Positions 16,146 to 55,861 of a stretch of 64,000 bases of DNA are shown piece by piece. The notes beneath the pieces are model-generated. The model was not told the DNA's origin. It saw only the letters and a list, made by a program, of their open reading frames with translations, and made no database searches. A program made the translations under genes and the position numbers. Origin of the DNA: Deltaproteobacteria bacterium. GTDB lineage: Bacteria; Desulfobacterota; Syntrophobacteria; Syntrophobacterales; Syntrophobacteraceae. The stretch covers positions 124,001-188,000 of the forward strand of contig JAAYVE010000024.1 of NCBI GenBank assembly GCA_012517315.1, read 5' to 3'. Numbering within the stretch: position 1 is the stretch's first letter; the number at the start of each line of letters is the position of its first letter.

Positions 16146-16203
16146 GTTCTTCTTTTCCCCTCTCGTGGTAGTCTTCAGGAGTCGATGACCGGACCCCGCT
16201 TCC

Positions 16204-20855: not shown

Positions 20856-21425
20856 TCACGGCACGAGAACCACGTCCCCACGCTGGAGGGGGATGTTCTG
20901 TTCCAGCTTCTTCCCCTCCTTCACCTGGTCGTAGTTGAAGGGGAACTGCACCGTCGACGTCCCCTCGGAGCGGATGACGACGATCTCCTTTTCCTTGGCG
21001 AAGGGTGTGAGCCCTCCCGCCATGGAAAGGGCCTGGAGCACGTTCAAGCCCTTTCCCACGTTGTACATCCCCGGTCTCTGCACCTTCCCGAGGACATAGA
21101 ACTGCATGCTCCCCAACTGGGCCACGATGACCGTCACCGCCGCCTGGGGAACGTAAGGGCGCAAAGCGTTTTCAATGAGGTCCTTCACCTCAGCCGTCGT
21201 TTTCCCGGCCACTTCCACGTCTCCCGCCAGGGGGAAGGAAATTTTCCCGTCCGGGCGCACCACCAGTTCGTCCCGCCGCAACTCCTGTTCTCCCCAGACG
21301 GAGATGTCGAGCACATCCGCAGGGGCGATGAGGTACTCGTCCGCGCGGGCCAAGGGCGGGCAAGCGGCATGAAACAAGAGGGTGAAAAGGAGGGGAGAAA
21401 TAAAAAGAGCGAAAAGGTGTTTCAT
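20856..21425 (-). CDS. short Wza-type polysaccharide export protein
   Basis: A 189-residue protein with a signal peptide (about 1-28, cleavage near LARA-DEY). The Poly_export domain (about 29-105) begins YLIAPADVLDISVWGE and contains RPDGKISFPLAGDVEVAGKT, and one SLBB-type domain follows (about 110-170, FYVLGKVQRPGMYNVG). It lacks the long C-terminal helix of E. coli Wza and is the short form found with exosortase loci. Cys22 follows HAA, a poor lipobox, so lipid attachment is doubtful. It lies 116 bases after the initiating transferase gene and would form the periplasmic or outer-membrane part of the exopolysaccharide channel, together with the barrel and chain-length proteins encoded at 52.6-55.7 kb. 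Confidence 0.9.
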   Translation of the reverse strand: MKHLFALFISPLLFTLLFHAACPPLARADEYLIAPADVLDISVWGEQELRRDELVVRPDGKISFPLAGDVEVAGKTTAEVKDLIENALRPYVPQAAVTVIVAQLGSMQFYVLGKVQRPGMYNVGKGLNVLQALSMAGGLTPFAKEKEIVVIRSEGTSTVQFPFNYDQVKEGKKLEQNIPLQRGDVVLVP

Positions 21426-21541: not shown

Positions 21542-23185
21542 CTAAAGGCCGACGACGCCGCGGGCGGCCAGTAGGAGCAGGGTCGCCACCGTGAAGCGGG
21601 CGAGCTTCCCGTACTCGCCCCGCAGTTCTCCGTTGAGCACTTCGTAGCTGAAGAAAAAGGCGATCATCTTCGTCGCCACCAGCCCCAGGGCCTGCCCCTG
21701 GATGCGGGCGTCGGGGAGGTTGGGGACCACCAGGACCACAAAGAGGATGAGGAAGTCCATGGGGGTGGTCTTGAAGCCTTTCCTGCGCCGGGTGAACTTG
21801 AGGGTGAGGAGAACGGACGCCGCCATCACCGTGAAGAGCCCACAGTAAACATGTCCAAGCCCGTTCCCCATCCAGGAAAAGGGCTCGAGCTCCCCAAAGT
21901 AGACCACGTAGGGGATGAGGAGATACAGTGTGGTCCGCAGCACGGTCCCCAGCCACACGGGCCGAAATCGCCAGGCGAAGAGCACAGGGACCATGAATCC
22001 TGCGGCCATCCAGGGAACGAACGCAGGGAGACGGGCGGGGATCATGCAGGAAACCAGGAGCAGCAGCGGCAGACCGTTTTCCAACACCGCATGGGAAACC
22101 CGGATGACCAGCTGTTTTTCCCTGAGGGGGCGCAGCCGCGTCCGCACGAAGTGTTCGACGATATCATACCGGGGAACCTTCCACCCTTTCCTCTCCGCCA
22201 CGATGAAACCGGTGACGATGAGCCCGGAGAAGAGGGCGTAGAAACCTAGCAGGGCCCCGTCCGGGTGGTGCCGCAGGAGAAAGGCCGACGACACCAGAAG
22301 GGACTGGACCACGTAAATGACGAGGACCGCCTCCTTGTGGACGAACCCCAGGCGCATGAGTTTGTGGTGAAAGTGGTTTTTGTCCGCCACGAAGGGGGAT
22401 TTCCCCGCCGCCATGCGCTCCGTCATGACCGTGAGGGTGTCCAGGATGGGAAAGCCCAGGAGGAGCAGGGGGAGGAGGGGGCTCAAGCCCGTGAGCCCCT
22501 GGGTGAGCTTGATGGACAGGGTGACGGCAAGGAACCCCAGCATCTGGCTTCCCGCATCCCCCATGAAGAGGTCCGCCGGGTATGTGTTGAACCGGAGGAA
22601 CCCAAAAACGGCCCCGCTCACCGCCAGGGCGAAAAGGGCCACCTCCGTGTCGCCCACCCGGTGGGCCAGGTAGGCGATGCAAAGAAAGATGAGAATGGAG
22701 ATGCCCCCGGCGAGTCCGTCCAGGCCGTCGGATAGGTTGATGGCGTTGGTCGCTCCCACGATGACAACCACCGTGAGGGGCACTGCAAGCCAATGGGGGA
22801 GGGACAAACCCGGGGGAAGAAGGGTGCCCAGGGAAGAGATCTCCACGCCGCCCCAGAGGATCACCACCAGGGCCGCCGCCACCTGGCTCGCGAACTTGGG
22901 CTTGTAGGAGAGATTCACGAAGTCGTCCACGGCACCGAACACCACCACGATGGCGCTCCCCAGGAGAACCGCCCGTACGAAATGGTCCATGGGGAGCCAC
23001 AGGAGCACGGGGATCACCGCCCCACATGCCATGGCAATGCCCCCGCTCTTAGGCATGGGACAGGTGTGCACCTTCCGGGGGTCCGGTGCGTCCACCGCAT
23101 TGAGGCGGATGGCCAGGCTCCGGACGATGGGGATCAGGATGATGGAGGTGAAGAGGGAGATGAAGAGGGTGGCCAGGAAAACCAT
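21542..23185 (-). CDS. WecA/MraY-family undecaprenyl-phosphate sugar-1-phosphate transferase with C-terminal extension
   Basis: A 547-residue integral membrane protein. The family motifs are present in order: DAPDPRKVHTCPMPKSGG (about 32-49), GAVDDF (84-89, the catalytic Asp pair), NAINLSDGLDGLAGG (147-161), LFMGDAGSQMLGF (206-218) and NHFHHKLMRLG (270-280). It would load the first sugar phosphate, probably GlcNAc-1-P, onto undecaprenyl phosphate. Usual WecA-like proteins end near 350 residues; here a further 200 residues form several more hydrophobic helices. It is followed by the Wza gene and preceded by a broken toxin-antitoxin remnant on the other strand. Confidence 0.9.
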   Translation of the reverse strand: MVFLATLFISLFTSIILIPIVRSLAIRLNAVDAPDPRKVHTCPMPKSGGIAMACGAVIPVLLWLPMDHFVRAVLLGSAIVVVFGAVDDFVNLSYKPKFASQVAAALVVILWGGVEISSLGTLLPPGLSLPHWLAVPLTVVVIVGATNAINLSDGLDGLAGGISILIFLCIAYLAHRVGDTEVALFALAVSGAVFGFLRFNTYPADLFMGDAGSQMLGFLAVTLSIKLTQGLTGLSPLLPLLLLGFPILDTLTVMTERMAAGKSPFVADKNHFHHKLMRLGFVHKEAVLVIYVVQSLLVSSAFLLRHHPDGALLGFYALFSGLIVTGFIVAERKGWKVPRYDIVEHFVRTRLRPLREKQLVIRVSHAVLENGLPLLLLVSCMIPARLPAFVPWMAAGFMVPVLFAWRFRPVWLGTVLRTTLYLLIPYVVYFGELEPFSWMGNGLGHVYCGLFTVMAASVLLTLKFTRRRKGFKTTPMDFLILFVVLVVPNLPDARIQGQALGLVATKMIAFFFSYEVLNGELRGEYGKLARFTVATLLLLAARGVVGL

Positions 23186-25195: not shown

Positions 25196-26845
25196 TCAGA
25201 GGTTCGCCCCCGGGATGAACTCGTCCAGAAGGGGAACGACCTGGGAAAGGAACCCCTGGAGGCGCGACTCGGCCTCCTGGATGCTTTCCCCGCTCCCCAC
25301 GGGGGTGAGGACGCGGACCAGAGCCCCGTCCGTTCGTCGTCGGGTGAGGGCGTCCCAGAAGTTGAAGAGCTTCAGCTGATAGGCGTTGTGCAGGATGCGG
25401 CCCCGCATGGGAAACCAGAAATAGGCCAGCGACTTCTGCCCGATCTTTTCCATGACCACCCGGTTGACCGTCAGGGACCCGTTGCCGTGTGCACCCACGG
25501 GAAGGGTGGACGCACCGGCTTCCCGGAAGACCCAGCCTCCCCCGATGAGGCACGTCTCAGGGGAATGGATGGATTCCCCCTTGCGCTGGTTTTCGTAGTA
25601 GGCCACGTAGAAGTTGACGCTCTCCCCCTTGCCGTTCATATAATCGATGAGGGTGTAGTCGCTCACGTCCAGTTCCCGGACGAACTTCGCTTCAATAAAG
25701 TCCCGGCTGCCCCGCCACTGGGAGACTTCCAGGGGAAAGGCGGCAAGGGTCCGGTGGATGGGAATCCTGGGGCTGAAGTCCACCGTCCGGTAGACGGCGA
25801 AGGTGCATCCAAGGAGGGCGAGGGCCGCCGCAACGCGGGCGAACTGACCCCTTTGGCCAAGGAAAGTCAGGGGGCTGCCGGCCGGGGTGTCGCCGGGGTC
25901 TTTCCCCTTTTCCTCTATCGGGCTTTCATCCTCGGGCGCCTGCCCAGCCTGCGGGGAGGCCGCCCGGGAGCCTTTTCCGGGCGGTGATCCATTCCTTCCC
26001 ATTTTCCCCAGGAGCCACATTTCCCCCAGGAGCACCCCGAAGGAGACGACGAAGATGACCCAACCCGAGAAATCGTGGAAGAAACCTTCCGCCACCTGTG
26101 GCCCCCAGTCGATCCAGAAATATCCCGTGAGGGCGATGCGCATGCTGTTCCAGAGGATGGTGAGGGGAATGGTGGACAGGACCAGGAGGGCGCGCTTCCA
26201 CAGGGAGGCGCGGAAGAAATAAGCGAGAATGAGCCCCAGGACCAGCAGGGGGATCACGTACCGCAGGCCGCTGCAGGCTTCCACCACCTGGAGCTGGGTG
26301 TAGCCGATGTCGATGACGTTTCCCTCCCGGTAGGCGGTGACCCCTAGGGCTCGCAGGAAAAGGGCCCCGATCTGAGAGGATACGAGCTGTAGCTTCAGGG
26401 TGATCTGCCGGTGGAGAAAGTCGGGCAGCGGGATGGCCGTGAGGAAGAGAAACAGGGGAAAGGCCAGGATCCGTGTGCGGGTCCGGCCCATGTGCAGCCA
26501 CAGAAGCCCTACCACGACGAACCACGCGGAGATGTGGAGGAGCGTGTATTCCCCCCCTAGTTCCCCCAGCCAGAACAGAAAGATCCCCGCCAGAAGCGGC
26601 GCCGTGCCCAGCCAGGGGGCATCCAGGGGGGCGGAGGAAAGGGCGTCCCGGTTTTCCCTTGCAATGTAGAGCATGACCAGGGGGATGAGCCAGGCGTAGG
26701 AGTAGTCCCCCCCGTTCCAGGCGGCGAAGACCCGGGGGAGGGAGGCTGCGTAGAGCCCCCAGAGGACGGCCCCGTAGAGGGCCGTGAAGATGAACCATGG
26801 GGCCAGGGCCATCGCCTGGAGCCGGGAGGTTTGGGTTTCATCCAT
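25196..26845 (-). CDS. xrtD: exosortase XrtD fused to an EpsI domain
   Basis: A 549-residue protein. Residues about 14-285 form a multi-helix exosortase with the catalytic triad seen as EACSGLRY (Cys191), NSMRIAL (Arg236) and FFHDFSGW (His257). After a hydrophilic linker and another membrane helix (about 335-352) comes an EpsI-like periplasmic domain (about 355-545) with HSPETCLIGGGW (427-438) and FWFPMRGR. This joined architecture is typical of the VPLPA-CTERM exosortase, XrtD. It would cut exported proteins at their C-terminal sorting signal and hand them to the cell surface or polysaccharide. A matching substrate is encoded at 51407-52039. Confidence 0.92.
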   Translation of the reverse strand: MDETQTSRLQAMALAPWFIFTALYGAVLWGLYAASLPRVFAAWNGGDYSYAWLIPLVMLYIARENRDALSSAPLDAPWLGTAPLLAGIFLFWLGELGGEYTLLHISAWFVVVGLLWLHMGRTRTRILAFPLFLFLTAIPLPDFLHRQITLKLQLVSSQIGALFLRALGVTAYREGNVIDIGYTQLQVVEACSGLRYVIPLLVLGLILAYFFRASLWKRALLVLSTIPLTILWNSMRIALTGYFWIDWGPQVAEGFFHDFSGWVIFVVSFGVLLGEMWLLGKMGRNGSPPGKGSRAASPQAGQAPEDESPIEEKGKDPGDTPAGSPLTFLGQRGQFARVAAALALLGCTFAVYRTVDFSPRIPIHRTLAAFPLEVSQWRGSRDFIEAKFVRELDVSDYTLIDYMNGKGESVNFYVAYYENQRKGESIHSPETCLIGGGWVFREAGASTLPVGAHGNGSLTVNRVVMEKIGQKSLAYFWFPMRGRILHNAYQLKLFNFWDALTRRRTDGALVRVLTPVGSGESIQEAESRLQGFLSQVVPLLDEFIPGANL

Positions 26846-26899: not shown

Positions 26900-28138
26900 T
26901 CATGATTCCATGACGGTGGCCTGTATGATCTCCAGGTACCGCTGCGCCAGCATGTCCCGGTCGAACCGCTCCCGGACGAACGCCCGTCCGTTCTCCCCGA
27001 GGCTCCGGGCGAGGGCCGGGTCCCGGTGGAGGCGGACCACGGTCCGGGCCAGTTCTCCAGCGTCTTCCGGTTCAATGAAAAGGCCGCAGCGGCCCTCCTC
27101 CACGATGCCACGGCTTTCCCCCTCCACCCCGAGGATGATGGGGCGTGCCATGGCCATGGCTTCGAAGATCTTGGACGGGATGACCGTCTTGAACACGTCT
27201 CTTTTGCGCAGAAGGACCATGCAGGCGTCGGAGGCGGCGAGAAAGGCGGGCATTTCCTCCTTGGGCTGCTGTGGCAGCATGAGAACGTTGTCCAGCCGAA
27301 GCCGCTCCCGTTCCGCCTCGAGCCGCTCCCGTTCCGCCCCGTCCCCCACCAGGAGAAAGCGGATCTCCCGTTCACGGCGCAGCAGTTCCGCCGCCTTGAG
27401 GACCGTCTCCAGCCCGTGAGCCATGCCGTGGGTGCCGATGTAGGATGCGACGAAGGTCCCCCGGAGTCCCAACTGCTCCCTCACGCCGTTTTCCCTGTCC
27501 ATGGGATGGTAGCGGGAGAGGTCCGCCCCGTTGGTGAGAACGGAAATCCGGTGCGGCGGCACCCGTCTCTTCTCGATGTGCCCCTTGAAGGAACGGGTGA
27601 CGGAGACGATGTGGTCCGCCCGCTGGTAGAGAAACGTCTCCATGGATTCCAGGAAGCGGATGACCCTCCGGTTTTGCATGGCCCCCACGGCGATGATACT
27701 CTCGGGCCACAGGTCCCGGATTTCCAGGACCCACGGGCGCCTCTTGAGGCGGGCGACCCAGAGGCCCGCCATGCCACAGAAGAACTGGGGGGAGGTGGAC
27801 ACGACCACGTCCACGTCCCGGGCCGCTCCGCTCTGGATCGTGGCCGAAACCATGTACGAGAGGTAGTTGGCCGTACGCCGCAGAAACCCCTTGTTGGCAC
27901 TGAGGTAGGTCCTGACCCGCAGCACCCGGATCCCCTCCATGGTTTCCCATCCGCGGAGGCGGTTGGGGTAACCGGGATAAAGGACCCCCGCCGGGTGGCT
28001 GGGATTGCAGGTGAGGACCGTGACCCGGTGGCCTGCCCGCACCCACCTGCGGGCGTTCTCAAAGGTGCGGGAGGCGGGGGCGTTCACCTCGGGGGGGAAG
28101 TAGTGGGTCAGAAAAAGAATGTGCACGGGTTGCTCCAT
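26900..28138 (-). CDS. glycosyltransferase family 4 (WbuB-like)
   Basis: A GT-B fold transferase of 412 residues when started at the ATG at 28138 (MEQPVHILFLTHYFPPE). A TTG at 28180 with a G-rich upstream patch would add 14 residues. The N-terminal half has the nucleotide-free Rossmann start and VLEIRDLWPESI, typical of the WbuB/WcaI-type group; the C-terminal half has NGADLSRYHP, FVASYIGTHGMAHGLE and PSKIFEAMAMARPII, the E-x7-E region that binds the donor sugar nucleotide. It follows the lyase gene after 55 bases and precedes the exosortase gene. Donor and acceptor are unknown. Confidence 0.9.
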   Translation of the reverse strand: MEQPVHILFLTHYFPPEVNAPASRTFENARRWVRAGHRVTVLTCNPSHPAGVLYPGYPNRLRGWETMEGIRVLRVRTYLSANKGFLRRTANYLSYMVSATIQSGAARDVDVVVSTSPQFFCGMAGLWVARLKRRPWVLEIRDLWPESIIAVGAMQNRRVIRFLESMETFLYQRADHIVSVTRSFKGHIEKRRVPPHRISVLTNGADLSRYHPMDRENGVREQLGLRGTFVASYIGTHGMAHGLETVLKAAELLRREREIRFLLVGDGAERERLEAERERLRLDNVLMLPQQPKEEMPAFLAASDACMVLLRKRDVFKTVIPSKIFEAMAMARPIILGVEGESRGIVEEGRCGLFIEPEDAGELARTVVRLHRDPALARSLGENGRAFVRERFDRDMLAQRYLEIIQATVMES

Positions 28139-28193
28139 TTGAGGAGGCCGTCGAAACGCAGCGATTCCGCGGCGCTTCAAGCCCCCGCGCCCC

Positions 28194-29930
28194 TCACCTC
28201 AGGGCGATGGTCCAGCGGAACCTGCGGGGGAGCGTCGCTGCCGGGTGCGACACGGTGAGAACGGTGCATCCCTGCCGTACGCCGAAACGGGGACAGTACC
28301 ACCCCCGGTGGCATTCGATGCGCCGGTCCCCGTCGGTGGAAAACAGGACGGAAACGCCGTGGTCCGCCGCGACCCGCACCACCCCCGCCTGAGACTCCAC
28401 AGCGCAGTCGGGGTGGAGATGGATGCGGGATTCCACGTGGTGCGTTCCCGATCCTTCCAGGAAGTCCTCCACCGTGATCCCTTCGGAAGCCCAGACAATC
28501 CTACGATGATGGACGGGACTGCCGTTCAGGAGCCTGTAGCCGTCGTGTGCCCCCTCGAAGACCAGGGCGCCGTCGTCCCGCCGAGTGAGGTTCCCGTAGA
28601 GGGGCCTGGCCCGGTTCCCGCACCGGTGGGCCCCCCACACCTCCGACTGGTCCCTGTGGTCCACGGTCACCCCGTTGTGGCCGCGGTTTCCCCGGTTGTA
28701 GCGGCGCATCGCCCCGTCTTCGTACTGACAGCACCCGGAATCCACCACCACGCGCCGCCCCCCTAAAGACAGCTCGAAGCTCAGGGTGTCGCAGTGGGCG
28801 TGGCCCGGCTGGTAGTCCGGCCCGACGGGCCCGCAGTCGACGATGAGTTGGTCGCCCTCCCGGGGTGCCATCACAAAATAGCCCGAGTGGGGAAAGGACC
28901 GCAGGGTAGGGGGAAGGTCGGCTGAACCGTTCACCCCCAGCATCCCGCCGAAGCGGAACAGGTGGTCGGGCGGTGCTTCGATCCCGAAGGCCGCGTCATT
29001 GAAAAGGGGGATCTCTCCGTCGGGGTGCACGACGCCGCGGAGAAAACCGATCATCCGGCGTGCCGTCTCGTGCAGACGGGCTTCGAAGAGGGCCCGGATG
29101 CGGGGCTCCCCCGGAGCCTCCTTGCCCGCGTCCGGCGAGCCCCGCAGGAGGTTCAGGAGGTCCAGGCAATCTTCCAGGATCATGGAATGGTACATGGGAC
29201 TCCGTTCGAAGTGACCCCCGTCGGGCAGGACCTGTTCCGACAGCTCCCGGTGGAGGATTTCCAGGCCCAGGGCGAGCCACCGTGCGGCGTCTTTCCCGCG
29301 GAAGAATAGACCGGCGAAAATCAGGGCCTTGGCGTTCTTGAAGAGGTGGTTGGCCAGGAGGTGATACTCGAGGGAGTCCTCCAGCCAGAGGGCCTGGTGG
29401 TACGCCGACCGGAGCACGAAATCAACGCGAGGGCCGCACGTGTCGCAGGCGCTCAGGTACTTGACCCAGTTGACGAGCCTGAGGGAGATGGGAAACGGGT
29501 CCCAGGCGTCGGGCGTTCCGGGCGGGTTCTCCCGGACCCAGTGTTCCATGAGCCGGAGGGCCCGCTCCCGGTCAGGGCGTCCCCCTTCATTGAGATATTG
29601 GAAGTAGTGGAGGTTGTACCGCCACAGGCGGCTCTTCCCCGGTGCCGCCCATCGGGGAAGACCTCCGAAGTCCACGGTGTCGTTGAGGAATCGGAATCGG
29701 CCCCGATCGATGTCCGTCGGGGATGCGGGGGGCCTTGAAGGAAAGGGGATGACCGGACAAAGGGGCGTGAAGCGGAGGGGGCCCCACGCGACACAGCCCC
29801 TCCACCACAGGGACACCGGCAGTCTGCGGCGCACGGCGTACCACAGTCGGTACACGATCTGCTCCCGCCTGAGGTGGGAGACGGTCCTGAGAGTGCGGGG
29901 GAGTTGCGGAAACAAGGGATATTGCTTCAC
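28194..29930 (-). CDS. heparinase II/III-like polysaccharide lyase
   Basis: A 578-residue protein. The GTG at 29930 is chosen because it overlaps the stop of the upstream oxidoreductase (GTGA); the frame remains open further upstream inside that gene but is only its shadow. The N-terminal part (about 1-320) looks like the helical alpha/alpha toroid; the heparinase II/III part (about 325-560) has GHAHCDTLSFEL, VVVDSGCCQYEDG and RRYNRGNRGHNGVTVD, where the His/Tyr residues of these lyases lie. Such genes occur in many exopolysaccharide loci beside a two-domain oxidoreductase. No signal peptide is obvious, so it may act in the cytoplasm or leave by another route. It probably trims uronic acid-containing polymer. 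Confidence 0.88.
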   Translation of the reverse strand: MKQYPLFPQLPRTLRTVSHLRREQIVYRLWYAVRRRLPVSLWWRGCVAWGPLRFTPLCPVIPFPSRPPASPTDIDRGRFRFLNDTVDFGGLPRWAAPGKSRLWRYNLHYFQYLNEGGRPDRERALRLMEHWVRENPPGTPDAWDPFPISLRLVNWVKYLSACDTCGPRVDFVLRSAYHQALWLEDSLEYHLLANHLFKNAKALIFAGLFFRGKDAARWLALGLEILHRELSEQVLPDGGHFERSPMYHSMILEDCLDLLNLLRGSPDAGKEAPGEPRIRALFEARLHETARRMIGFLRGVVHPDGEIPLFNDAAFGIEAPPDHLFRFGGMLGVNGSADLPPTLRSFPHSGYFVMAPREGDQLIVDCGPVGPDYQPGHAHCDTLSFELSLGGRRVVVDSGCCQYEDGAMRRYNRGNRGHNGVTVDHRDQSEVWGAHRCGNRARPLYGNLTRRDDGALVFEGAHDGYRLLNGSPVHHRRIVWASEGITVEDFLEGSGTHHVESRIHLHPDCAVESQAGVVRVAADHGVSVLFSTDGDRRIECHRGWYCPRFGVRQGCTVLTVSHPAATLPRRFRWTIALR

Positions 29931-32164
29931 GAATCGTCGGCGGGAAGGGTCGGACAGCCCTGCAGAACCCCTTCTTCCTCCCCCTCCTCCAGGGAAACTG
30001 TCCGGCCGCTGTTGAGAGCCTCGTGGATGGCGAAGGTCACCCGGGTGGTCTCGAAAATCTCCTCCACCGGGATGGGGGGCGGCCCCCCGTCGAGAACCGC
30101 CCCCATGAACGCCTCCATCTCCCGCTGGAACCCCTTGTCCTGCTTTCCCCTCCCCCCGACGTTCCGGCTCCCCCCGTAGACTTCCAGGTTCCGGTAGTCG
30201 TCCAGGACCAGGACTTTTCCGTCCGCCGCAGCCTCCAGCCGTTCCTTGGGGCAGTCGGGGCTTCCCAGGGCATGGTAGAGGACGGTGCCCAGAGAGCCGT
30301 CTTCGTAGGTGAGGGTCACCGCCACCGAATCCCGGCCGGTGTGACGCACGTCGTCGGTATGGACACAGGCCGCCTGAACGGTCCTGACGGGGGCTCCCAC
30401 CAGGAAGCGGAGGAGGTCCACGAAGTGGCACACCTCCCCCAGGATGCGGCCTCCCCCTTCCACCGGATCCTGGACCCAGGAATCCCTGGGAACGAAGCCT
30501 GCGTTCACCCGGTAGGAAAGGACAAGGGGGGTGGACCTTCCGGCGAGGGTGTTTCGCAGCCGTTCCGCGAGAGGGGAAAAACGCCGGTTGAAGCCCGTCA
30601 TGAGAACCGGGGGTGTGTCCCTGGAGAGGTCCTGCCAGGTCTTTCGGATGGCCGCCAATTCCTCGGCGTTTAGGCACAGGGGCTTTTCCACGAAGACGTG
30701 CTTTCCGGCCCGCAGGGCGTCCAGGACCAGGGGCCCGTGGAGATTGTGGCGGGTGGCCACCACCACGGCTTTCACCGCATCGTCGGCCAGGATCTCCCCC
30801 GGGTTCTCCGTGCACCAGGCGAAGCCGAACTGCTCGGCCACAGCCCTGGCGTTCATGCCCCGGGCCGTGGCGACGCCGACGAAACGGGCCCGGGGATGCC
30901 GTTTCAGGGCGGGAAGGAGCACGCCCCTGGCGAAGCTCCCGGCCCCGATGACCCCGATCCCCAAAGTGCTCTCCTTTTGGGGTTCCCGGGCCGCGGATAC
31001 GGGAATCCGTCGGGGTTCCGGTAGGGTGGCATATCGGAGGACCACCCCCAGATAGGGTTCCGTGCCTCCGAGGATCATGCGGTAGGCCTGGAGGGACTCT
31101 TCAAAGGAAAACCGGTGGGTGACAAGAGGGCGCACGTCCACCCGCCCCGCCGCCACGAGTTCCAGGAAGGCCTGCATGTTCCGCTGTTCCGTCCATCGGA
31201 CGTAGGGGAGGGGATAGTCGTGGCCCCGCTCCTCGTATTGCTCGTCGTAACGCCCGGGGCCGTAGGAGAGGGAGAGGCGCACGTCCAGTTCCTTCCGGTA
31301 ATAGTCGTCCCGGGGGATCTCCATGCCCACCTGGCCCACCACCACAACGCGGCCCTTCAGCCGTGAGATCTCGCCGGCGATCTGCATGCAGCTGCTGTCC
31401 CGGGAGGATGCCGTGACGAGAACCGCGTCCACGCCGATTCCCCGGGTGAACGCCAGGGCCGTTCGTTCCAGGTCACCGCTTGTCACCGCGGCGTCGGCCC
31501 CCAGCTTCAGGGCCAGTTCGATTTTGGCCGGGTCGAGGTCCGCCCCCAGGACACGGCATCCGCAGGCCTTGCAGAGTTGGACGGCGAGTTGGCCGATGAG
31601 GCCGAGTCCGATGACGGCGACGCTCTCCCCGAGGGTCAAGGCCGCCTGCCTCACCCCCTGGAGGGCGATGGCCCCCACCGTCGTGAACGCCGCCTCCTCG
31701 AAGGAGACGGGATCGCCGTTTCGCCCGTTCCCCGGCCTGGGGATCTTCACGCAGAGGTTCCTGGGCACTACGTTCCAGTGGGCGTGGTTTGCATAGCCGG
31801 CACCGCCGCACGCCACGGGGTCGCCGGGGTGCAGCCCCTCTGTTTCGTCCCCCGTCTCCCGGACGATCCCGGCACAGGCGTACCCCAGGGGAATGGGGGT
31901 GTCCAGCTTGCTCCGCACCTTCTGAAGGGTGTTGACCAGGCCCTCCCGCCGGGCGGTGGCCACGACCTTGCGCACGAGGTCCGGCCGGGCCCGGGCCTTT
32001 CCCAGGAGAGACTTTCTTGCCAGGTCCACGAGCATCTTCTCGGTCCCGGCGGAGATGACGGAGACCGCCGTTTCCACCAGCACCGTCCCCCGTGTCACCT
32101 GGGGCCGGGGCACCTCCTCCAGGGCCATCTCCCCCGTCTTGTACGACTGGATGATCTGTTTCAT
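29927..32164 (-). CDS. two-domain oxidoreductase: zinc-type dehydrogenase plus Gfo/Idh/MocA
   Basis: A 745-residue fusion. Residues about 1-355 are a medium-chain alcohol dehydrogenase-like domain (PLGYACAGIVRETG, then VAVIGLGLIGQLAVQLCKA for NAD(P) binding). Residues about 385-720 are a Gfo/Idh/MocA oxidoreductase (LGIGVIGAGSFARG, then AGKHVFVEKPLCL). AAGGAA sits before the ATG. This fused protein is frequent next to heparinase-like genes in surface polysaccharide clusters. It probably oxidises or reduces a sugar nucleotide or sugar residue, but the substrate is not known. It is the first gene of a tight run to the lyase (GTGA overlap). Confidence 0.9.
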   Translation of the reverse strand: MKQIIQSYKTGEMALEEVPRPQVTRGTVLVETAVSVISAGTEKMLVDLARKSLLGKARARPDLVRKVVATARREGLVNTLQKVRSKLDTPIPLGYACAGIVRETGDETEGLHPGDPVACGGAGYANHAHWNVVPRNLCVKIPRPGNGRNGDPVSFEEAAFTTVGAIALQGVRQAALTLGESVAVIGLGLIGQLAVQLCKACGCRVLGADLDPAKIELALKLGADAAVTSGDLERTALAFTRGIGVDAVLVTASSRDSSCMQIAGEISRLKGRVVVVGQVGMEIPRDDYYRKELDVRLSLSYGPGRYDEQYEERGHDYPLPYVRWTEQRNMQAFLELVAAGRVDVRPLVTHRFSFEESLQAYRMILGGTEPYLGVVLRYATLPEPRRIPVSAAREPQKESTLGIGVIGAGSFARGVLLPALKRHPRARFVGVATARGMNARAVAEQFGFAWCTENPGEILADDAVKAVVVATRHNLHGPLVLDALRAGKHVFVEKPLCLNAEELAAIRKTWQDLSRDTPPVLMTGFNRRFSPLAERLRNTLAGRSTPLVLSYRVNAGFVPRDSWVQDPVEGGGRILGEVCHFVDLLRFLVGAPVRTVQAACVHTDDVRHTGRDSVAVTLTYEDGSLGTVLYHALGSPDCPKERLEAAADGKVLVLDDYRNLEVYGGSRNVGGRGKQDKGFQREMEAFMGAVLDGGPPPIPVEEIFETTRVTFAIHEALNSGRTVSLEEGEEEGVLQGCPTLPADDS

Positions 32165-32236: not shown

Positions 32237-32563
32237 ATGGCTGGAATGACCGTTACTGGGGCGGATGCCGGAAGGCGGCTTTCGGACCTGGTGGGCGTCT
32301 TGGCTCAGGGAAAAGAGCGGATCGTCATCACCAAGCGGGGTAACCCCACGTCTGGGCCGGTGCACCCTGAAGGAGAGTCAGGACACCTTGCGAAAGCCCC
32401 GGCATGGCTGGACCAATCGGATGAATTCACTGAGAAAATAGGAACCCTTCTCGGGAATCGAGCCGCGCATGTACCTGGGTTCAATGCTCTGATGAAGCGA
32501 TCGGTCCCGGTTTTGTTAAAAGACCGCTCATATCGATCTTCTCAGGACGCGGCCCGTCGATAA
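32237..32563 (+). pseudogene. degraded Phd/YefM-type antitoxin
   Basis: The first 45 residues match the DNA-binding half of prevent-host-death antitoxins: VTGADAGRRLSDLVGVLAQG then ERIVITKRGNP. After this the usual V-A-A-L-V pattern is lost (TSGPVHPEG) and the C-terminal part, which would bind a toxin, is only faintly recognisable (EFTEKIGTLLGNRAAHVPGF). The last 83 bases overlap the 3' end of asnB on the other strand. No toxin gene follows. It is probably a decaying orphan, 72 bases from the divergently transcribed oxidoreductase gene. Confidence 0.5.
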
Positions 32564-34451
32564 AGGTGCGGCACCAAAGCTCGACACAAATGAGGGCGAA
32601 GATGGCATATGCCCCGTCCACCCGTCCCTTTCGATCCCTATCGATGAGTTCCCATACCGTTTTGGAATCAAAAATCCCGCGGGATTCCAGGGACTGTGGC
32701 GCAAGCAGTTCATCAACTGCAGGTCGGAGCTCGCGGCGGAGCCACTGCCTCAATGGCGCTCCAAAGCCCGTTTTGGGCCGGTAGATGACCTCTCGGGGCA
32801 GAAAGGGCTCCGCGGCTTTCTTGAAAATCCATTTGCCAACGGGACCGCGTTGTTTGTAATCAATAGGAAGAGTGGCGGCCAATTTGACCACTTCCGGATC
32901 CAGCAGGGGGACTCGCACTTCGACGCCGACGGACATACTCATTTTGTCCGTGTAGTTGAGATTGTGGTCGGTAAGGAAGAACTTGCCTTCAAGGTAGAGC
33001 ATCCGGTTGAGGGGGTGTGTGTCCTCGGGGAGTCGCTGCAACGCACCCAGGAGAGGGCTCAGGCATGTATCGGGTGACACCTCCATGTGCAGTTCTGGAG
33101 AGAGCAATCCGTGGGCGAGACCTTCGTTCAGCCAGAGAAAGTAGCTTGCCACCGCCGCATCGCCATCCAGGGGGGCGTGTTGAAGAGCTTTTCTCAAACG
33201 CCTGGCCGATGGATAAGTCGTGGGGATTTCCCGTGCGGCCCTGGCGACGCGTTGGCGAATGCCAGCGGGCAACCAGTCCCAGTACCTGCGGTCCAGGAGT
33301 GCCCGGTGTCTGCGATATCCTGTGAAGATGTCGTCTCCCCCTGCCCCTGAGAGCAGCACGGTGATGCCCTGCGTTCTGGCCAGTCTGCTGATGAAAAGGG
33401 CGTTCAGAGGTGCGGGGTCACCTTGGGGTTCGTCCAAGTGGTAGATCATGGTGCCCAGTTCCTCGATCATTTCCGCCCCGACCTGGATCGTGTGAAGGTC
33501 GATGTCCAGCTCTTGGGCCACCCTTCGCGCATACGGCAGGTCCTCGGCCATGCCTTCAACGCGCGCGGCATCGGAGGCCATCCCGATGGTGAAACACTGC
33601 ATCCTGCCATTGTTTGAAAGGCCGCACGCCATGGCGACCACCGTGCTGGAATCCAGACCCCCAGAGAGAAAAGCCCCGACGGGCACATCGGAAACCATCT
33701 GGCGCTCGACCGCCCGGGCGACCGTTGTTCTTACGGCCTCTACAGCCTCATGGGGGGGCATTGCGCCCACCGGCAGATGATAGGGAAGATCGTAGAACTC
33801 CCACGCACGCTCGATTTTCCCATGGTGAACCAGAAGCGCTTCACCGGGCTTTACCTTGCGGATGCTTTTCAAAGGCGTGCGGGGCGAAGGGCACCAGAGC
33901 AGGGTCAGGTAATGGAGAACCGCGCGGGGATCCAATTCTCGATCTACGGTGGGTTCTTCCAGGATTGACTTCATTTCGCTGGCAAAGAGGAACCCCTTTT
34001 CCGTCTGTGCCACGTAAAGCGGTTTGATCCCGATGCCGTCCCTTGCCAGGAAAAGCGTTTCACTCTGGGTATCGTACAAGGCGAAGGCGAACATCCCGTT
34101 GAGACTGGCCAACATTGCTGCTCCGTCCCGCCGGTAGAGAGCGAGCAGAACCTCGGTATCCGAACGGCTCCTGAAGGGGTAACCCTCTGCCTCCAATTCG
34201 CGACGCAATTCCAAGTAGTTGAAAATTTCCCCGTTGAAAACGATGACGCACCGATGTTCGCTGTCCCACATGGGTTGATGCCCGAGAGGCGAGAGATCGA
34301 TGATGGCGAGCCGCCGATGAACCAGCCCGACGGCTTTCTTCGGGTCATGGAAGGCGCCTGAATCGTCCGGCCCCCGATGGGCCATCCGGCCGCTCATCCT
34401 GTCGAGCAACTCCGGCGCAAAAGAACCGCTGAACCCTGCTATGCCGCACAT
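32481..34451 (-). CDS. asnB: asparagine synthase-type glutamine amidotransferase
   Basis: A 656-residue two-domain enzyme. Cys2 (MCGIAGFSG) is the glutaminase nucleophile; the N-terminal domain (about 1-215) has RGPDDSG, VFNGEIFNY and RSDTEVLLALY; the synthetase domain (about 240-620) has the ATP-pyrophosphatase motif FLSGGLDSST (261-270). In free metabolism it makes asparagine. In surface-polysaccharide clusters relatives such as WbpS are thought to turn a uronic acid into its amide, which is the more likely role here. It overlaps the upstream glycosyltransferase by 13 bases and is the last gene of the block that begins at 48 kb. Confidence 0.92.
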   Translation of the reverse strand: MCGIAGFSGSFAPELLDRMSGRMAHRGPDDSGAFHDPKKAVGLVHRRLAIIDLSPLGHQPMWDSEHRCVIVFNGEIFNYLELRRELEAEGYPFRSRSDTEVLLALYRRDGAAMLASLNGMFAFALYDTQSETLFLARDGIGIKPLYVAQTEKGFLFASEMKSILEEPTVDRELDPRAVLHYLTLLWCPSPRTPLKSIRKVKPGEALLVHHGKIERAWEFYDLPYHLPVGAMPPHEAVEAVRTTVARAVERQMVSDVPVGAFLSGGLDSSTVVAMACGLSNNGRMQCFTIGMASDAARVEGMAEDLPYARRVAQELDIDLHTIQVGAEMIEELGTMIYHLDEPQGDPAPLNALFISRLARTQGITVLLSGAGGDDIFTGYRRHRALLDRRYWDWLPAGIRQRVARAAREIPTTYPSARRLRKALQHAPLDGDAAVASYFLWLNEGLAHGLLSPELHMEVSPDTCLSPLLGALQRLPEDTHPLNRMLYLEGKFFLTDHNLNYTDKMSMSVGVEVRVPLLDPEVVKLAATLPIDYKQRGPVGKWIFKKAAEPFLPREVIYRPKTGFGAPLRQWLRRELRPAVDELLAPQSLESRGIFDSKTVWELIDRDRKGRVDGAYAIFALICVELWCRTFIDGPRPEKIDMSGLLTKPGPIASSEH

Positions 34452-42472: not shown

Positions 42473-43945
42473 TCAACCGGAAGACTCAGCCATTATTGCT
42501 TCATCGCCCCTACCCCGGCTCTCGGAGCCCCTTGCGAGCGTCTTCAGGTCTCTAGCGGCGGTGTGCAGAATCAAAACCGAAAAAGCAAGATAAGTGAGCG
42601 ATCCCGTTGTGACCTTTAAGAACCAGTGAGTGATGAGCATGTTGGCCGATATGAAGGCAATGGTACCGGCTATCATACAAACGAGGATTCCGGAGATTAT
42701 GGGAAGCAGGAAAAAGGAGCGACGTAAAAGCCATGAATAGAGAAAATACTGAATGGTAAAGGGAATACTTGAGGCCATTGCGGCCCCTGTCCCCCCCAAT
42801 GATGGAATCAGCAGAAAATTCATGGCTACGCTGAGGAGGCTCGACGCACATGAAATCACCATGATCCCCGCAGTCTTCTTCAATGCTATGGCAGTGTTCC
42901 ACATCAGTCCCGTTCCCGCGGCAAACGGGACGGAAACGCACAGGATCATCATGACCAGTTCGTTGACCTTTCCATATTTGTCCTCTGTGAGAGAGTCGAT
43001 CACGGGAGACCATGCGAGGAGTATGGCCAAAGGCAGAACCACAGAGAGTGACACCATGAGGCGATGGAGAAGGGTGAGCCTGTGTCGGCTCTCATAGGCA
43101 ACGTCTCCACTTCGGAGAGCAGAACTGAGCTTTGGAAGCAGGACGGTCCCCAGGATGGCATGGGGTAGCCAGGAAAGCTCGAAGATCCTGTATGCGAAGG
43201 CGTACTCTCCCGTCTCCTCCGCCGAGCGCATGGCTCCCATCATGATCCAGTCCGCTCGAGCCAGCGCTTGGTTGAAAAGCACGAGGCCAACCAGCGGAAA
43301 GCCCTCCTTCAAGAGCGCCTTCAATTCCGGCAGGTCGATCCTGGGAAGCAGTGAGAACCCCAGCGTCTTGGACGCGATGAACCCTGCCATGAGGGCGTCC
43401 AAAAGGTAACCCATCAGGAGTCCCACGATCAGCCCTGCCGCTCCATGACCCATGAGTACAAGCAGCAGACCCGCCGCGACCCTGAAAATCAGTCCTGCCT
43501 GCTCCGTCCATGTGTAATGCCAGAACTTTTGTTGAGCGACGAATAGCTGCTTGATGAAACCGGCGATCTGACCCACTGCGCAGGCTGCAAACGCTAGAAG
43601 AAGTAGCCCCGGATGGTCGATCTGTACCGGAGCCAAAATCAAAACAGGTGAAACAATGAATGCCAATGCGAGGGGGAAGGTCAACCGTTGAAACAGCGCC
43701 GTGCCGCTAGTGATGCCCAAAGTGGAGGACTCGGAGGCAATACGGCGCACGATGACAGGGTTTGTCCCAAAGGTGGTGACCTCTGAAGCCAGCTGGCCGG
43801 CAGCCAGGCAGAACGCATAAACACCGAGGTCGGATTTGGGAAGCCAGATGGCGATGACGAGAAAATAGGCGGCGTTGATCCCCAGTGAGAGGACCTTGCT
43901 GACCGCCGAGGCGGAGACCTGGGACAGAATGCGCTTCAGTTTCAC
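42473..43945 (-). CDS. wzx: Wzx-like polysaccharide flippase
   Basis: A 490-residue protein with about 12-14 hydrophobic helices along its whole length and the MATE-like repeat halves of lipid-linked sugar flippases. The GTG at 43945 overlaps the wzy stop (GTGA) and begins with a basic amphipathic start (KLKRILSQVSASAVSKVLSL). The central stretch LARADWIMMGAMRSAEETGEY is the typical conserved loop of these exporters. It would move the finished undecaprenyl-linked repeat unit across the inner membrane for the Wzy polymerase encoded just upstream. Confidence 0.9.
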   Translation of the reverse strand: MKLKRILSQVSASAVSKVLSLGINAAYFLVIAIWLPKSDLGVYAFCLAAGQLASEVTTFGTNPVIVRRIASESSTLGITSGTALFQRLTFPLALAFIVSPVLILAPVQIDHPGLLLLAFAACAVGQIAGFIKQLFVAQQKFWHYTWTEQAGLIFRVAAGLLLVLMGHGAAGLIVGLLMGYLLDALMAGFIASKTLGFSLLPRIDLPELKALLKEGFPLVGLVLFNQALARADWIMMGAMRSAEETGEYAFAYRIFELSWLPHAILGTVLLPKLSSALRSGDVAYESRHRLTLLHRLMVSLSVVLPLAILLAWSPVIDSLTEDKYGKVNELVMMILCVSVPFAAGTGLMWNTAIALKKTAGIMVISCASSLLSVAMNFLLIPSLGGTGAAMASSIPFTIQYFLYSWLLRRSFFLLPIISGILVCMIAGTIAFISANMLITHWFLKVTTGSLTYLAFSVLILHTAARDLKTLARGSESRGRGDEAIMAESSG

Positions 43946-45294
43946 TTTTCGGTCGATTCCAAAGCCGGTTTCAAAGCGCCACCGCTCGCTTGCGGCCATG
44001 CAGAAGGATGATTCAGCCGCCCCATGATCAGTCCCATTGTGTACATCACCAGAGCCATGCAGGAGATCTGTGTAACGGTCGGGTAAAGCAGTTCGGCGGT
44101 GATGCTCCCGACAAGAAGGGCGATGAGGAGCGCAAGCGACAGTTGACCGATGGGTTCGGCATCTCCCCCTGATCCCCGTGCGCGGTTCAATCGCAAGAGG
44201 AGACGAAAAAAGAACATCAGATAGATGATCCCCCCCAGCAGACCAAGTTCCCCTAACACGTGAAGGTAGAGATTGTGCCCAGCACTCTGGCCTCCAGCCC
44301 TGTAGATGGTATAGCCCCAGCAGTCGAAACCCACGCCCAGGATGGCATCGATGGGATGGTGAAACAGGTACTTGACGGCTACCGTCCATCCCGTCAGTCT
44401 ACCGGTCGACTCCAGAGTCTGCTCGACCTCGCTGCCTCCTGAAATGCTGGCAAGTCGCTCTGAAACAGCGGGCAAGATCGTCGCCAAGGCAATCAAGACC
44501 CCACCGAGAACCACCAAGAGAAGGAGGTTGGCAACTCTCTTCCCCTTGGCGAAAACGCTCATGAGAGTAAGGAAGACAATGACCGACAGGACGTTGCTCC
44601 GGGAGAAGGATGCCAGAGTCAACCAAAGAAAGGCTCCAGAGACAGGCGCTCCCAGGTAATATGGCAGCCTACGCGAACGCATGAGAAGGATCGAAAAGAA
44701 GAGTCCGAACTGAGCGTAAGTACCCAGACTCGCACGGTTCAACCACAGGATGCCGTACTGGACCGTACCCAATGCGGCTTCATGACCATAGTAAGAGGGT
44801 AAAGTAATGATCCTGCCGACATGGAGGGCGCTTGCCAGAACCAGGAGGCACAAGCCTGTGCAGGTCCATCGGACTATGCCGTCAAAATCCTTTTGCTCCA
44901 GCGGAATTGAACTCGCCATCAGGAAAATAAGGACGAGGGCCCCTGAACGCAGGCCGGCGAGTGACGAACGGAGAATGACTTCGTCCATCTTTTCGAGTCT
45001 GAGGTAGCCGAAAGCAGTGCAAACGACGATGTAGAGCGTGAGGATGCACAGGTGGACCCACATGTTCTTGAAATGCCGCTTGATGTGAATGCGGCCCAGC
45101 CGTATCGCCCATGGAATGAAGCCCGCGGCAACGACAATTTCCTGTAGGTATATCCAGGATCTCTGGCCCTCTGTTGCCTGGTAGGCCGGTGCGGTGATGA
45201 TCAAAGAGGCCAGGATCGCGAGGAGTAAGGATTTCTGTCCGCGGACACCGGCAGCGGCCAAAACGAAGGCCAATACTGCGAGGATGTCACGCAT
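43942..45294 (-). CDS. wzy: Wzy-like O-antigen polymerase/ligase family protein
   Basis: A 450-residue protein with about 11-12 membrane helices and the family's large periplasmic loop. That loop (about 290-360) holds STGRLTGWTVAVKYLFHHP and GQSAGHNLYLHVLGELGLLG, the conserved R...H-N-x-Y-L motif of the WaaL/Wzy group. Polymerase rather than ligase is preferred because wzx follows with a GTGA overlap and chain-length genes are nearby. No clear ribosome binding site precedes the ATG. Confidence 0.88.
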   Translation of the reverse strand: MRDILAVLAFVLAAAGVRGQKSLLLAILASLIITAPAYQATEGQRSWIYLQEIVVAAGFIPWAIRLGRIHIKRHFKNMWVHLCILTLYIVVCTAFGYLRLEKMDEVILRSSLAGLRSGALVLIFLMASSIPLEQKDFDGIVRWTCTGLCLLVLASALHVGRIITLPSYYGHEAALGTVQYGILWLNRASLGTYAQFGLFFSILLMRSRRLPYYLGAPVSGAFLWLTLASFSRSNVLSVIVFLTLMSVFAKGKRVANLLLLVVLGGVLIALATILPAVSERLASISGGSEVEQTLESTGRLTGWTVAVKYLFHHPIDAILGVGFDCWGYTIYRAGGQSAGHNLYLHVLGELGLLGGIIYLMFFFRLLLRLNRARGSGGDAEPIGQLSLALLIALLVGSITAELLYPTVTQISCMALVMYTMGLIMGRLNHPSAWPQASGGALKPALESTEK

Positions 45295-49826: not shown

Positions 49827-51119
49827 TCACGCCGAATAGCACAGGGCGTTCTTGTTGCGGACGATGTTCCGGGTGTCCACGACAGGGATGCCGAAGGCCG
49901 TGAAGTCCATTTCCCGGTAGGCGTCGTGGGGGGTGGCGATGAGGAGCAGATCGTAGTCGCCGCTCACCTCCGCGCACTTTCTCCCGGCGAACCGGGCGTA
50001 CTGGCGGGAGGGCCGGATGACGGGAATAAAGGGGTCATGGTAGTCCACCCGGGCCCCTTCCGCCTCCAGCTTTTCCATGAGGCGGTACGAGGGGGATTCC
50101 CGGTCGTCGTCCACGTTGGCCTTGTAGGCGAGGCCCAAGAGAAGGATCCGGGAACCCTTGAGGTGCTTCCCGTTGTCGTTCAGGGCCTTCATGACCTTCA
50201 AAACCACATAGTCGGGCATGGACGTGTTGATGTCCCCCGCCAGTTCGATGAACCGGGTGTGGAAGTCGTATTCCCTGGCCTTCCACGTGAGATAGAAGGG
50301 GTCGATGGGGATGCAGTGCCCCCCCAGCCCTGGGCCGGGGTAAAACGCCTGGAAACCGAACGGCTTGGTCTTGGCCGCCTCGATCACCTCCCAGACGTCG
50401 ATGCCCATGCGGTCGAAGAGCATTTTCAATTCGTTCACCAACGCGATGTTCACGGAGCGGTAGATGTTTTCCAGCAGCTTCGTCGCTTCCGCCACCCTGG
50501 TGGAAGACACGGGCACGGTGCGCTCCACCACGTGGCCGTAGAGGGCCAGGGCCGCTTCCAGGCACCGGGGGGTGTAGCCGCCGATGACCTTGGGGATGGT
50601 CCGCAGGCCGAATTCCTTGTTGTTGGGGTCCTCCCGCTCGGGGGAGAAAGCCAGGTGGAAATCGGTGCCCGCCCGGAGCCCCGTTTCCTCCAAGATCCTG
50701 CGCATGTCCTCGTCGGTGGTGCCAGGGTAGGTGGTGGACTCCAGGACGATGAGCTGCCCCGGGCGCAGGTGGGAAGCGATAGAGCGGGTGGTGGCGAAGA
50801 CGTAGCTCATGTTGGGTTCCCGGTTCCGGTTGAGGGGGGTGGGAACGCAAACGATGATGCAGTCGACCCCGGCGAGATGGGAGAAATCCCCCGTGGGAAG
50901 GAAGCGCTCCGCCAGCACCCTGGCGTGGGGGGCAAGATCCAGGTGAGCGATGTAGCTCTTTCCCTGAAGGAGCGCATCCACTTTCCCGGCATCGGAATCG
51001 AAGCCGGTCACCGGGAAACCCGCCCTACAGAATTCCAGGACCAGGGGCAGCCCCACGTAACCCAGGCCGATGACCCCGACCCGGGCTTCCTTGGCGTGAA
51101 TCTTTTCAATGAGACTCAT
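49827..51119 (-). CDS. WbpA-type UDP-HexNAc 6-dehydrogenase
   Basis: A 430-residue NAD-dependent enzyme that oxidises C6 of a UDP-N-acetylhexosamine to the uronic acid. The start at 51119 (MSLIEKIHAKEARVGVIGLG) places the Rossmann motif GLGYVGLP near residues 18-25. The catalytic Cys lies in YPGPGLGGHCIPIDPFYLTW, a form usual in WbpA/TviB-type enzymes rather than glucose dehydrogenases. ESTTYPGTTDEDMR and LGLAYKANVDDDRESPS are also typical. With WecB this could give UDP-ManNAcA; UDP-GlcNAcA is the alternative. It is separated from the rest of the sugar genes by the toxin-antitoxin remnants. Confidence 0.92.
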   Translation of the reverse strand: MSLIEKIHAKEARVGVIGLGYVGLPLVLEFCRAGFPVTGFDSDAGKVDALLQGKSYIAHLDLAPHARVLAERFLPTGDFSHLAGVDCIIVCVPTPLNRNREPNMSYVFATTRSIASHLRPGQLIVLESTTYPGTTDEDMRRILEETGLRAGTDFHLAFSPEREDPNNKEFGLRTIPKVIGGYTPRCLEAALALYGHVVERTVPVSSTRVAEATKLLENIYRSVNIALVNELKMLFDRMGIDVWEVIEAAKTKPFGFQAFYPGPGLGGHCIPIDPFYLTWKAREYDFHTRFIELAGDINTSMPDYVVLKVMKALNDNGKHLKGSRILLLGLAYKANVDDDRESPSYRLMEKLEAEGARVDYHDPFIPVIRPSRQYARFAGRKCAEVSGDYDLLLIATPHDAYREMDFTAFGIPVVDTRNIVRNKNALCYSA

Positions 51120-51263
51120 GGGTGGAAAAACCTCGCAGGTTGTCGTCACTTGGGCCTCAGATAGCCCTTATCGCGACTTATGGCACGAATCTAAGGGAGT
51201 GTCAAAAGGCTCGTTGGGGGAGCGGGCCGTCCGCCGCCCAGTGGAAAAAGAGGAGGCGCGGGT

Positions 51264-51406: not shown

Positions 51407-52039
51407 TTACAGGACAATGCGCCTCACACCGGCGAGGCCGGCCACGGCGGAACCGAAGAACCAGATGCTGCCGGGCAGGGGCGCGTGGCTCCCATTGGAG
51501 GAAGAAGACGGGGCAGCGTCCCCCCACACCTGGATTTCCCGGATGCGGGAGTGCCTGGCGCCGTCGGCCAGCGCGACCTTCACGTACTGCACCGCCGGGG
51601 TTTCGTCGTCCACGAGGGCGAGAAACGAGGAGGTCCACCAGGAGAAGCTCCCCTTGAGCCATTCCACCGGGGTCCAGCTCTTCCCGTCCACACTGGTGCT
51701 GAGTAGAAGGGAAAAGGTATCCCGCCTTCTCCTGCTGTCGGCGAAAACCTGGATGGCATCCAGTTCATGGCATTCCCCCAAGTCCAGCACCAACCAGCTG
51801 AAGTCGCTCCCATTGCCCTTTTTGCCGGGGTTCCACCAAGTGGTGATGTCTCCGTCCACTGCGTATTCCCCGGCAAAGGTCCAGTCCCCGACAGTCTTTT
51901 CCCCCGAGACCGAAACGGTCGTCGTGGACAATTGGGAAAGATTGACACCTGAATAGGAGGCCCAGGCCATGGAGGTGGTGAAGAGGGCCCCGAGAATGAT
52001 TAATGTAAGAATGCAAAAAGTCTTCATTCCACTGCTCAT
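51407..52039 (-). CDS. VPLPA-CTERM sorted protein with discoidin-like domain
   Basis: A 210-residue exported protein. The ATG at 52039 has AAGGAG six bases upstream. Signal peptide about residues 5-27 (ending AWAS). Residues about 30-170 look like a discoidin/F5-8 type C sugar-binding domain: VDGDITTWW, FSWLVLDLGECHELDAIQVF, WTPVEW and a closing strand HSRIREIQVWG. After a Ser-rich linker comes the sorting signal APLPGSIWFFGSAVAGL (186-202) and a basic end (AGVRR), matching the VPLPA-CTERM pattern: motif, membrane helix, Arg pair. It is the expected substrate of the XrtD exosortase at 25.2 kb. Confidence 0.88.
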   Translation of the reverse strand: MSSGMKTFCILTLIILGALFTTSMAWASYSGVNLSQLSTTTVSVSGEKTVGDWTFAGEYAVDGDITTWWNPGKKGNGSDFSWLVLDLGECHELDAIQVFADSRRRRDTFSLLLSTSVDGKSWTPVEWLKGSFSWWTSSFLALVDDETPAVQYVKVALADGARHSRIREIQVWGDAAPSSSSNGSHAPLPGSIWFFGSAVAGLAGVRRIVL

Positions 52040-52589
52040 GATTTCTCCTTTCATCTTCCCGTTTGAATGTGCCGAATCACAAGTTTGTAACGCTTTTCAA
52101 CCCCATTGCATGCTGGAAATCATTCATTACCGACACGAGAACGTCCCCTTGAACGGAATCCCACCTCCTTTTTTTGTTCATTCAGATCCGTCAGCAAATC
52201 CCCTCACAACTCCTATTTAGATCATATTTAAAGCAAAAACTTTTATTATATGCCGAGAAAGTATCATTCTGCAATAACCATTTCAAGGTATTTTTTCATC
52301 ACTTACCTCTATCAGTATATTGATTTTATTGGTAAATTCTTTGTAACAGATTCTTAACAAAAGTGACACAGAAATGCCATGGGGCACCGGGATCATGAAA
52401 CGCTCATCGTTGAGGGTGAGGGGGAGGTCGGGGTCCGGACCGGGGGCAGCCCTTCGGGGCCGGTTGACGGCGCAGGAAGAAGGCAGGGCTGGATGGTTTG
52501 GCCCCTGAGGACGATCTTAAGCAGGCCATCCCGGAGGATTCCAGGATGATGGGATTCTACCACCGGTGCGGCGTTGGAGGCAAATCAAT
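52040..52589. other. AT-rich divergent promoter region
   Basis: About 550 bases separate the minus-strand sorted-protein gene from the plus-strand export operon. The stretch 52215-52370 is much richer in A and T than anything around it (for example TTTTATTATATGCC), as expected for promoters in both directions. I cannot fix a sigma site by eye. No gene is seen; the part from 52380 to 52560 is again GC-rich and non-coding. Confidence 0.55.
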
Positions 52590-55677: not shown

Positions 55678-55861
55678 AGACCCCGCGTGAAGGTTTGCCC
55701 TCCCTGCGGCGTTCCGCGTCCGAGGCATAAGGATTCCCCAATACCTAATGCGTCGCGGCCTTCTCCTTCTTCATTATCTCCGGGAGAGAGTGGGGGCGGG
55801 AAGGAAGCCCTCCCGCCCGGGGGAAGGGGTGCCGGGGTCTCCGGGATTGACAAGGATCAAG

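Follow-up and report, generated by a model that had tools for sequence, protein, structure and literature searches.

The window, a 64,000-nucleotide stretch (C51:124001-188000) of a Deltaproteobacteria bacterium genome of 61 contigs and 4.43 Mb that is 99.36% complete, contains genes for exopolysaccharide (EPS) biosynthesis and export together with a gene for the exosortase XrtD (Table 1). The exosortase gene lies in a minus-strand run that also encodes glycosyltransferases, a flippase, a polymerase, dehydrogenases, an amidotransferase and an export protein. On the plus strand, an EPS export operon (52521-60467) encodes a TIGR03016-like outer membrane protein (OMP), a chain-length determinant, a tyrosine autokinase, an ATPase and PrsT. 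Between the minus-strand run and this operon, 25 kb from xrtD and divergent from the OMP gene, sits the gene for P0001, a candidate exosortase substrate. Since EPS genes lie on both sides of P0001, it stands inside the locus and not at its boundary. The original prediction had the exosortase enclosed by the EPS genes and by its substrate, an arrangement that was not confirmed: the export operon runs on past P0001.

Table 1. Features of the XrtD and EPS locus, in window positions
Feature	Position	Strand	Basis
Polysaccharide export protein (Wza-like, SLBB)	20856..21425	(-)	PF02563, TIGR03027 136.6 bits
WecA-like initiating sugar-phosphate transferase	21542..23185	(-)	PF00953, TIGR02380 189 bits
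xrtD, VPLPA-CTERM-specific exosortase XrtD, 549 aa (P0002)	25196..26845	(-)	TIGR04152, PF09721
EpsI domain fused at XrtD C-terminus, residues 340-543	25217..25828	(-)	PF11984 189 bits, TIGR02914 147 bits
XrtD His257	26075-26077	(-)	residue read directly
XrtD Arg236	26138-26140	(-)	residue read directly
XrtD Cys191	26273-26275	(-)	residue read directly
Transmembrane exosortase (EpsH) domain of XrtD, residues 27-279	26009..26767	(-)	PF09721 range
GT4 glycosyltransferase	26900..28180	(-)	profile matches
Heparinase II/III-like protein (ORF as listed; true start probably later)	28194..30815	(-)	PF07940 196 bits
Bi-domain dehydrogenase (ADH + GFO/IDH)	29927..32164	(-)	profile matches; relatives on XrtD contigs of G011, G028
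Asparagine-synthase-type amidotransferase of PEP-CTERM loci	32481..34451	(-)	TIGR03108 475 bits, below cut-off
Polysaccharide flippase (start uncertain, overlaps next ORF)	42473..44389	(-)	PF01943
O-antigen ligase/polymerase-like (Wzy_C)	43942..45294	(-)	PF04932
UDP-glucose/GDP-mannose dehydrogenase	49827..51149	(-)	PF03721, PF00984, PF03720
P0001, VPLPA-type candidate substrate: signal peptide, F5/8C (CBM32-like) domain, Ser-rich linker, C-terminal sorting tail	51407..52054	(-)	PF00754, 5zu6, G016 homolog
Putative sorting signal APLPG-helix-RR of P0001, C-terminal	51419..51481	(-)	TIGR03370, custom tail HMM
F5/8 type C / CBM32-like domain core of P0001, residues 49-127	51659..51895	(-)	PF00754
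TIGR03016-like PEP-CTERM-system OMP (frame as scanned; probable start near 52566)	52521..53816	(+)	TIGR03016 63.5 bits, below cut-off 90.85; relatives in 11 other genomes
EPS chain length determinant	53932..55677	(+)	TIGR03007 276.9 bits, cut-off 278.85
Exosortase-associated tyrosine autokinase	55748..56797	(+)	TIGR03018 175 bits
PEP-CTERM-system-associated ATPase	56873..58093	(+)	TIGR03015 280.7 bits
PrsT-like TPR lipoprotein	58080..60467	(+)	TIGR02917 279.9 bits

The exosortase is an ordinary, full XrtD within an ordinary EPS locus. The whole protein matches TIGR04152 at 537.6 bits against a cut-off of 400, covering model positions 2-486 of 486, and this score far exceeds that of every other exosortase subtype; PF09721 matches at 221 bits. 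The original description of a complete XrtD with Cys191, Arg236 and His257 and a fused EpsI domain was borne out in every part, the three residues reading exactly C, R and H and the EpsI domain being recognized by two models (Table 1). An alignment of XrtD and seven XrtD-like proteins of related genomes shows Arg236 and His257 to be invariant and Cys191 to be kept in seven of the eight; the exception, from genome G017, has AGEG in place of the ACSG or ACNG of the others. This G017 protein (L118, G017:C10, 9415-10878, minus strand) scores above the curated cut-off. Other exosortases are also present in G017, and a scan of that genome for VPLPA tails found none. Within the EpsI domain of XrtD, the motif His427-x-Pro-x-x-Cys432-x-x-Gly-x-Gly (residues 427-437, window 25535-25567) is invariant in all eight aligned proteins, and on this conservation the His427/Cys432 motif could be a second functional site. 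A search of solved structures by sequence found no relatives of XrtD. Contig searches returned 0 relatives with P0002 as the lone query and 470 with an alignment as query.

P0001 combines a signal-peptide-like start, judged by eye, with a tripartite C-terminal tail consisting of a P-x-P motif, a helix and a basic end. Its C-terminus reads HAPLPGSIWFFGSAVAGLAGVRRIVL, and the sorting tail itself is APLPGSIWFFGSAVAGLAGVRRIVL. PF00754 scores 32.8 bits on the protein, above the gathering score of 28.2, and by sequence the solved structures nearest to it are sugar-binding modules of the CBM32 type (PDB 5zu6, E 4.8e-6). The single-sequence fold consists mostly of strands, but its pLDDT of 49 is too low to base a fold search on. 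When ORFs of at least 70 codons in all six frames were scanned for the motif, the P0001 tail proved to be the sole such tail in the window, just as had been claimed for its APLPG-helix-Arg signal. With the curated TIGR03370 model the tail scores 16.3-20.1 bits, under the cut-off of 25.35 (20.1 bits and E 0.0047 in the genome-wide search). A homolog in related genome G016, 28-30% identical, carries the same domain (PF00754, 54 bits).

P0001 had been presented as the substrate of this exosortase, with a whole-genome search for VPLPA-CTERM signals as the check. The TIGR03370 search did find such signals, and the assignment of the P0001 tail to XrtD is supported, but the pairing is not unique. Five further VPLPA-type proteins lie outside the window, at C51:122562, on C3 (three close together) and on C7; the one at C51:122562, at 31.6 bits, is located only 1.4 kb beyond the window's left edge. 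Half of the six exceed the 25.35 cut-off, and the other three, P0001 among them, carry the motif. P0001 as the sole XrtD substrate was therefore rejected. Likewise, the compact one-enzyme/one-substrate unit of the original prediction is unsupported, because at least six VPLPA-type proteins would share XrtD. Judged from sequence, these proteins are the likely clients of XrtD, and P0001 is likely a substrate in a non-exclusive pairing. The genome encodes two exosortases, the second being an XrtA on contig C44 (TIGR03109, 218 bits against a cut-off of 208) with a separate EpsI. A TIGR02595 search recovered one clear PEP-type protein in the genome (VPEPGTMLLMGSGLLGLAVFQRVRRR, on C20), whose tail would fit XrtA. 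Having both XrtA and XrtD, each with a signal class of its own, the genome offers a natural test of specificity.

The explanation that we favor, and consider probable, is an EPS biosynthesis and export locus carrying the genome's XrtD, which would process secreted VPLPA-tailed proteins; P0001 most likely belongs to a group of six or more substrates and most likely helps to hold EPS at the cell surface. The identity and active-site residues of XrtD, the P0001 tail, the co-occurrence and the recurring gene order are observed; cleavage, the anchor, sugar binding and tethering are what we infer in this explanation. Exosortase substrates cross the inner membrane by Sec while the tail stays held in the membrane, and the exosortase Cys/Arg/His site presumably makes its cut close to P-x-P. 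Here, secreted proteins that carry both a signal peptide and a VPLPA-type tail would pause in the inner membrane, the Cys/Arg/His site of XrtD would probably cut at or near the P-x-P motif, and the cleaved mature protein would be passed toward the outer surface. The CBM32-like domain of P0001 would then most likely hold the exopolysaccharide to the cell surface. Exosortase genes are located in EPS loci (PMC1569441), the association of EPS with cells requires the exosortase or PEP-CTERM proteins (PMC12188702), and a role of the exosortase system in EPS association or retention is backed by several studies (PMC1569441, PMC9850573, PMC12188702). It is still largely unsettled how exosortases act on a substrate and to what the product becomes attached. 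This locus brings the exosortase and the polysaccharide machinery together with a candidate substrate bearing a recognizable sugar-binding-type domain, which leads to a concrete, testable tether hypothesis, and the "glycan-attachment system" of the original prediction is taken here as a hypothesis only. Counting against the favored explanation are the sub-cut-off P0001 tail, the 25-kb gap between XrtD and P0001 and the low pLDDT, together with three comparative results given below: the rarity of VPLPA tails near XrtD, two related genomes in which XrtD was not found, and the exceptional genome G020.

A less likely but serious alternative is that XrtD sorts proteins in general and lies near P0001 only incidentally; P0001 would then be processed without any special link to EPS. 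The dispersal of at least five other candidate substrates over C3, C7 and C51 fits this alternative, as do the mostly single-gene operons described by Haft et al. (PMC1569441). Moreover, when flanks of up to 10 kb were fetched for 79 named XrtD loci, a VPLPA tail turned up at only 5 of them, and a VPLPA gene close to XrtD was rejected as a general rule on that count. However, across a set of 59 related genomes that counts the window's own, the tails track the EPS OMP subfamily, which occurs in 9/9 genomes bearing P-[V/I/L]-P tails versus 3/50 of the rest (Fisher p 1.8e-8, ignoring relatedness).

A second point against incidental proximity is that the divergent arrangement of a VPLPA-tailed gene and the OMP gene recurs across four genera, counting four genomes in which the tail is seen (the window's, G016, G024 and G011) and a truncated case in G010. 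In G016 the P0001 homolog is divergent from the OMP gene, which is followed by the chain-length, kinase and PrsT genes. The G010 contig ends within the P0001 homolog, before the tail, leaving an N-terminal part divergent from the same operon. The slot is filled in G024 by a VPLPA-tailed gene with a proline-rich ectodomain and in G011 by one with an ectodomain other than that of P0001, and in both genomes XrtD lies about 1.4-3 kb away. XrtD was not found in the G010 and G016 assemblies, which carry the discoidin/OMP pair. The 28 OMP-bearing entries scanned represent 26 distinct loci (L162/L112 and L192/L113 are duplicates), and the slot is without a detected VPLPA tail at 21 of these, so the arrangement is local to the window's group.

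This slot for a substrate gene, next to the OMP gene and divergent from it, is the new point and the part worth following; apart from it, the XrtD locus is mostly ordinary. We tentatively suggest, as a possibility on the doubtful side, that Syntrophobacteria-type genomes have a fixed slot, divergent from the gene for the EPS OMP, that holds the polysaccharide's dedicated XrtD substrate, serving as a cell-to-EPS tether. From genus to genus, the binding ectodomain of this substrate may be exchanged (CBM32-like in the window, proline-rich or different in other genomes), with tail and position staying constant.

It is unlikely that the P0001 tail is degenerate or non-functional, with P0001 merely membrane-anchored through its C-terminal helix. 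The tail is a variant, with a short basic end (RR then IVL) and an Ala-rich GSAVAGLAG replacing GSGLLGL, and these features, like its sub-threshold TIGR03370 score, would agree with decay. Yet a custom tail HMM, built from 19 seed tails that excluded the P0001 tail and included that of its G016 homolog, gave P0001 31.6 bits, whereas the best of 8,767 ORFs from reversed sequence reached 11.2. In addition, the tail of the G016 homolog, whose gene occupies the equivalent position, ranks among the strongest VPLPA tails of the set (32.9-35.5 bits, above the TIGR03370 cut-off), and aligning the two homologs shows that both the motif and the basic end are kept.

The distribution of tails among the 59 genomes bears on which enzyme P0001 would meet. 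XrtD scores above cut-off in eight genomes, and P-[V/I/L]-P tails occur in nine, comprising 5/8 with XrtD versus 4/51 without (one-sided Fisher p 0.001, ignoring relatedness); the four XrtD-less genomes with such tails (G010, G016, G043 and G045) are all fragmented, and three are <90% complete. PEP-type tails are found in relatives whose exosortases miss the XrtD cut-off (for example G014, G023, G025, G026, G030, G038 and G055), P-[V/I/L]-P tails in XrtD-bearing G011, G021 and G024, and both exosortase kinds with both tail kinds in G028 and the window's genome. G020 is an exception, with XrtD and ten PEP-type matches, and a scan of it for P-[V/I/L]-P tails found none; thus, the specificity of XrtD for these tails is not absolute. 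The original prediction named a second exosortase better matching the signal as its refutation, and XrtA does not provide one. Processing of P0001 by the C44 XrtA, or by both enzymes, could draw on the presence of XrtA with its separate EpsI, on the partial overlap of the curated PEP-CTERM and VPLPA models (the C51:122562 protein exceeds both cut-offs) and on G020, but it is improbable given that a PEP-CTERM search of the genome at E<=10 reported no match to the P0001 tail and that PEP-type tails go with non-XrtD relatives and P-[V/I/L]-P tails with XrtD-bearing ones.

An XrtD with a CBM32-type surface substrate is a kind of system already known. The likeness to the XrtD/VPLPA-CTERM system (TIGR04152/TIGR03370) lies in the full-length, above-cut-off XrtD-EpsI fusion and the six VPLPA-type proteins, three of them above cut-off; the differences are the variant, sub-cut-off tail of the window's substrate (APLPG, Ala-rich helix) and the additional XrtA and PEP-type protein. 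As in the PEP-CTERM/EpsH (XrtA) EPS loci (Haft et al. 2006, PMC1569441), relatives of PrsT, TIGR03015, TIGR03018, TIGR03007, the TIGR03016-type OMP, TIGR03027 and TIGR03108 surround the exosortase, but here the exosortase is XrtD and the accessory proteins fall below the XrtA-trained cut-offs. A sigma-54 site has been reported upstream of PEP-CTERM genes (PMC1569441), whereas upstream of P0001 no sigma-54-type site stands out, the best score being no better than in random 450-mers. P0001 also resembles the flocculation PEP-CTERM protein PepA (NF033554; PMC9850573), an exosortase-type secreted protein tied to EPS for which the same EPS-holding role is proposed. It differs in its CBM32-like ectodomain and has no PepA match; on the G016 homolog, the PepA model matches the tail only (30.8 bits against a cut-off of 80).

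Several further observations concern the VPLPA proteins and the window's other genes. The VPLPA protein just outside the window (C51:121872-122639; L016:17872-18639) has a 63% identical relative in G010 (L122:8362-9282), and the gene that follows it is conserved, at 75% identity, in both genomes. The three VPLPA-tailed proteins on contig C3 (L017:7403-11441) have differing ectodomains, one being DUF4465 (PF14717, 188 bits). Within the EPS cluster, 45386-48031 (minus strand) encodes an 881-aa protein with only a short GH123 match at its N-terminus. The gene at 17865-19163 (minus) joins an FKBP-type domain and a thioredoxin-like domain in one protein. It adjoins a second FKBP-like gene at 19167-20048 (minus), a relative of which sits between VPLPA genes in G010 (L122:10696-11589). 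A two-partner secretion system occupies 6517-17868 (minus), with a TpsB-like transporter at 16204-17868 and a filamentous-haemagglutinin-type protein of 3012 aa at 7107-16145. Its DUF3739 domain is a separate, overlapping ORF (6517-7110), and this split of the C-terminal part of the adhesin looks unusual. Adjoining the adhesin genes, a single ORF at 4649-6520 (minus) combines DUF2341, a LamG/concanavalin-like domain and a MotA/TolQ/ExbB proton-channel domain.
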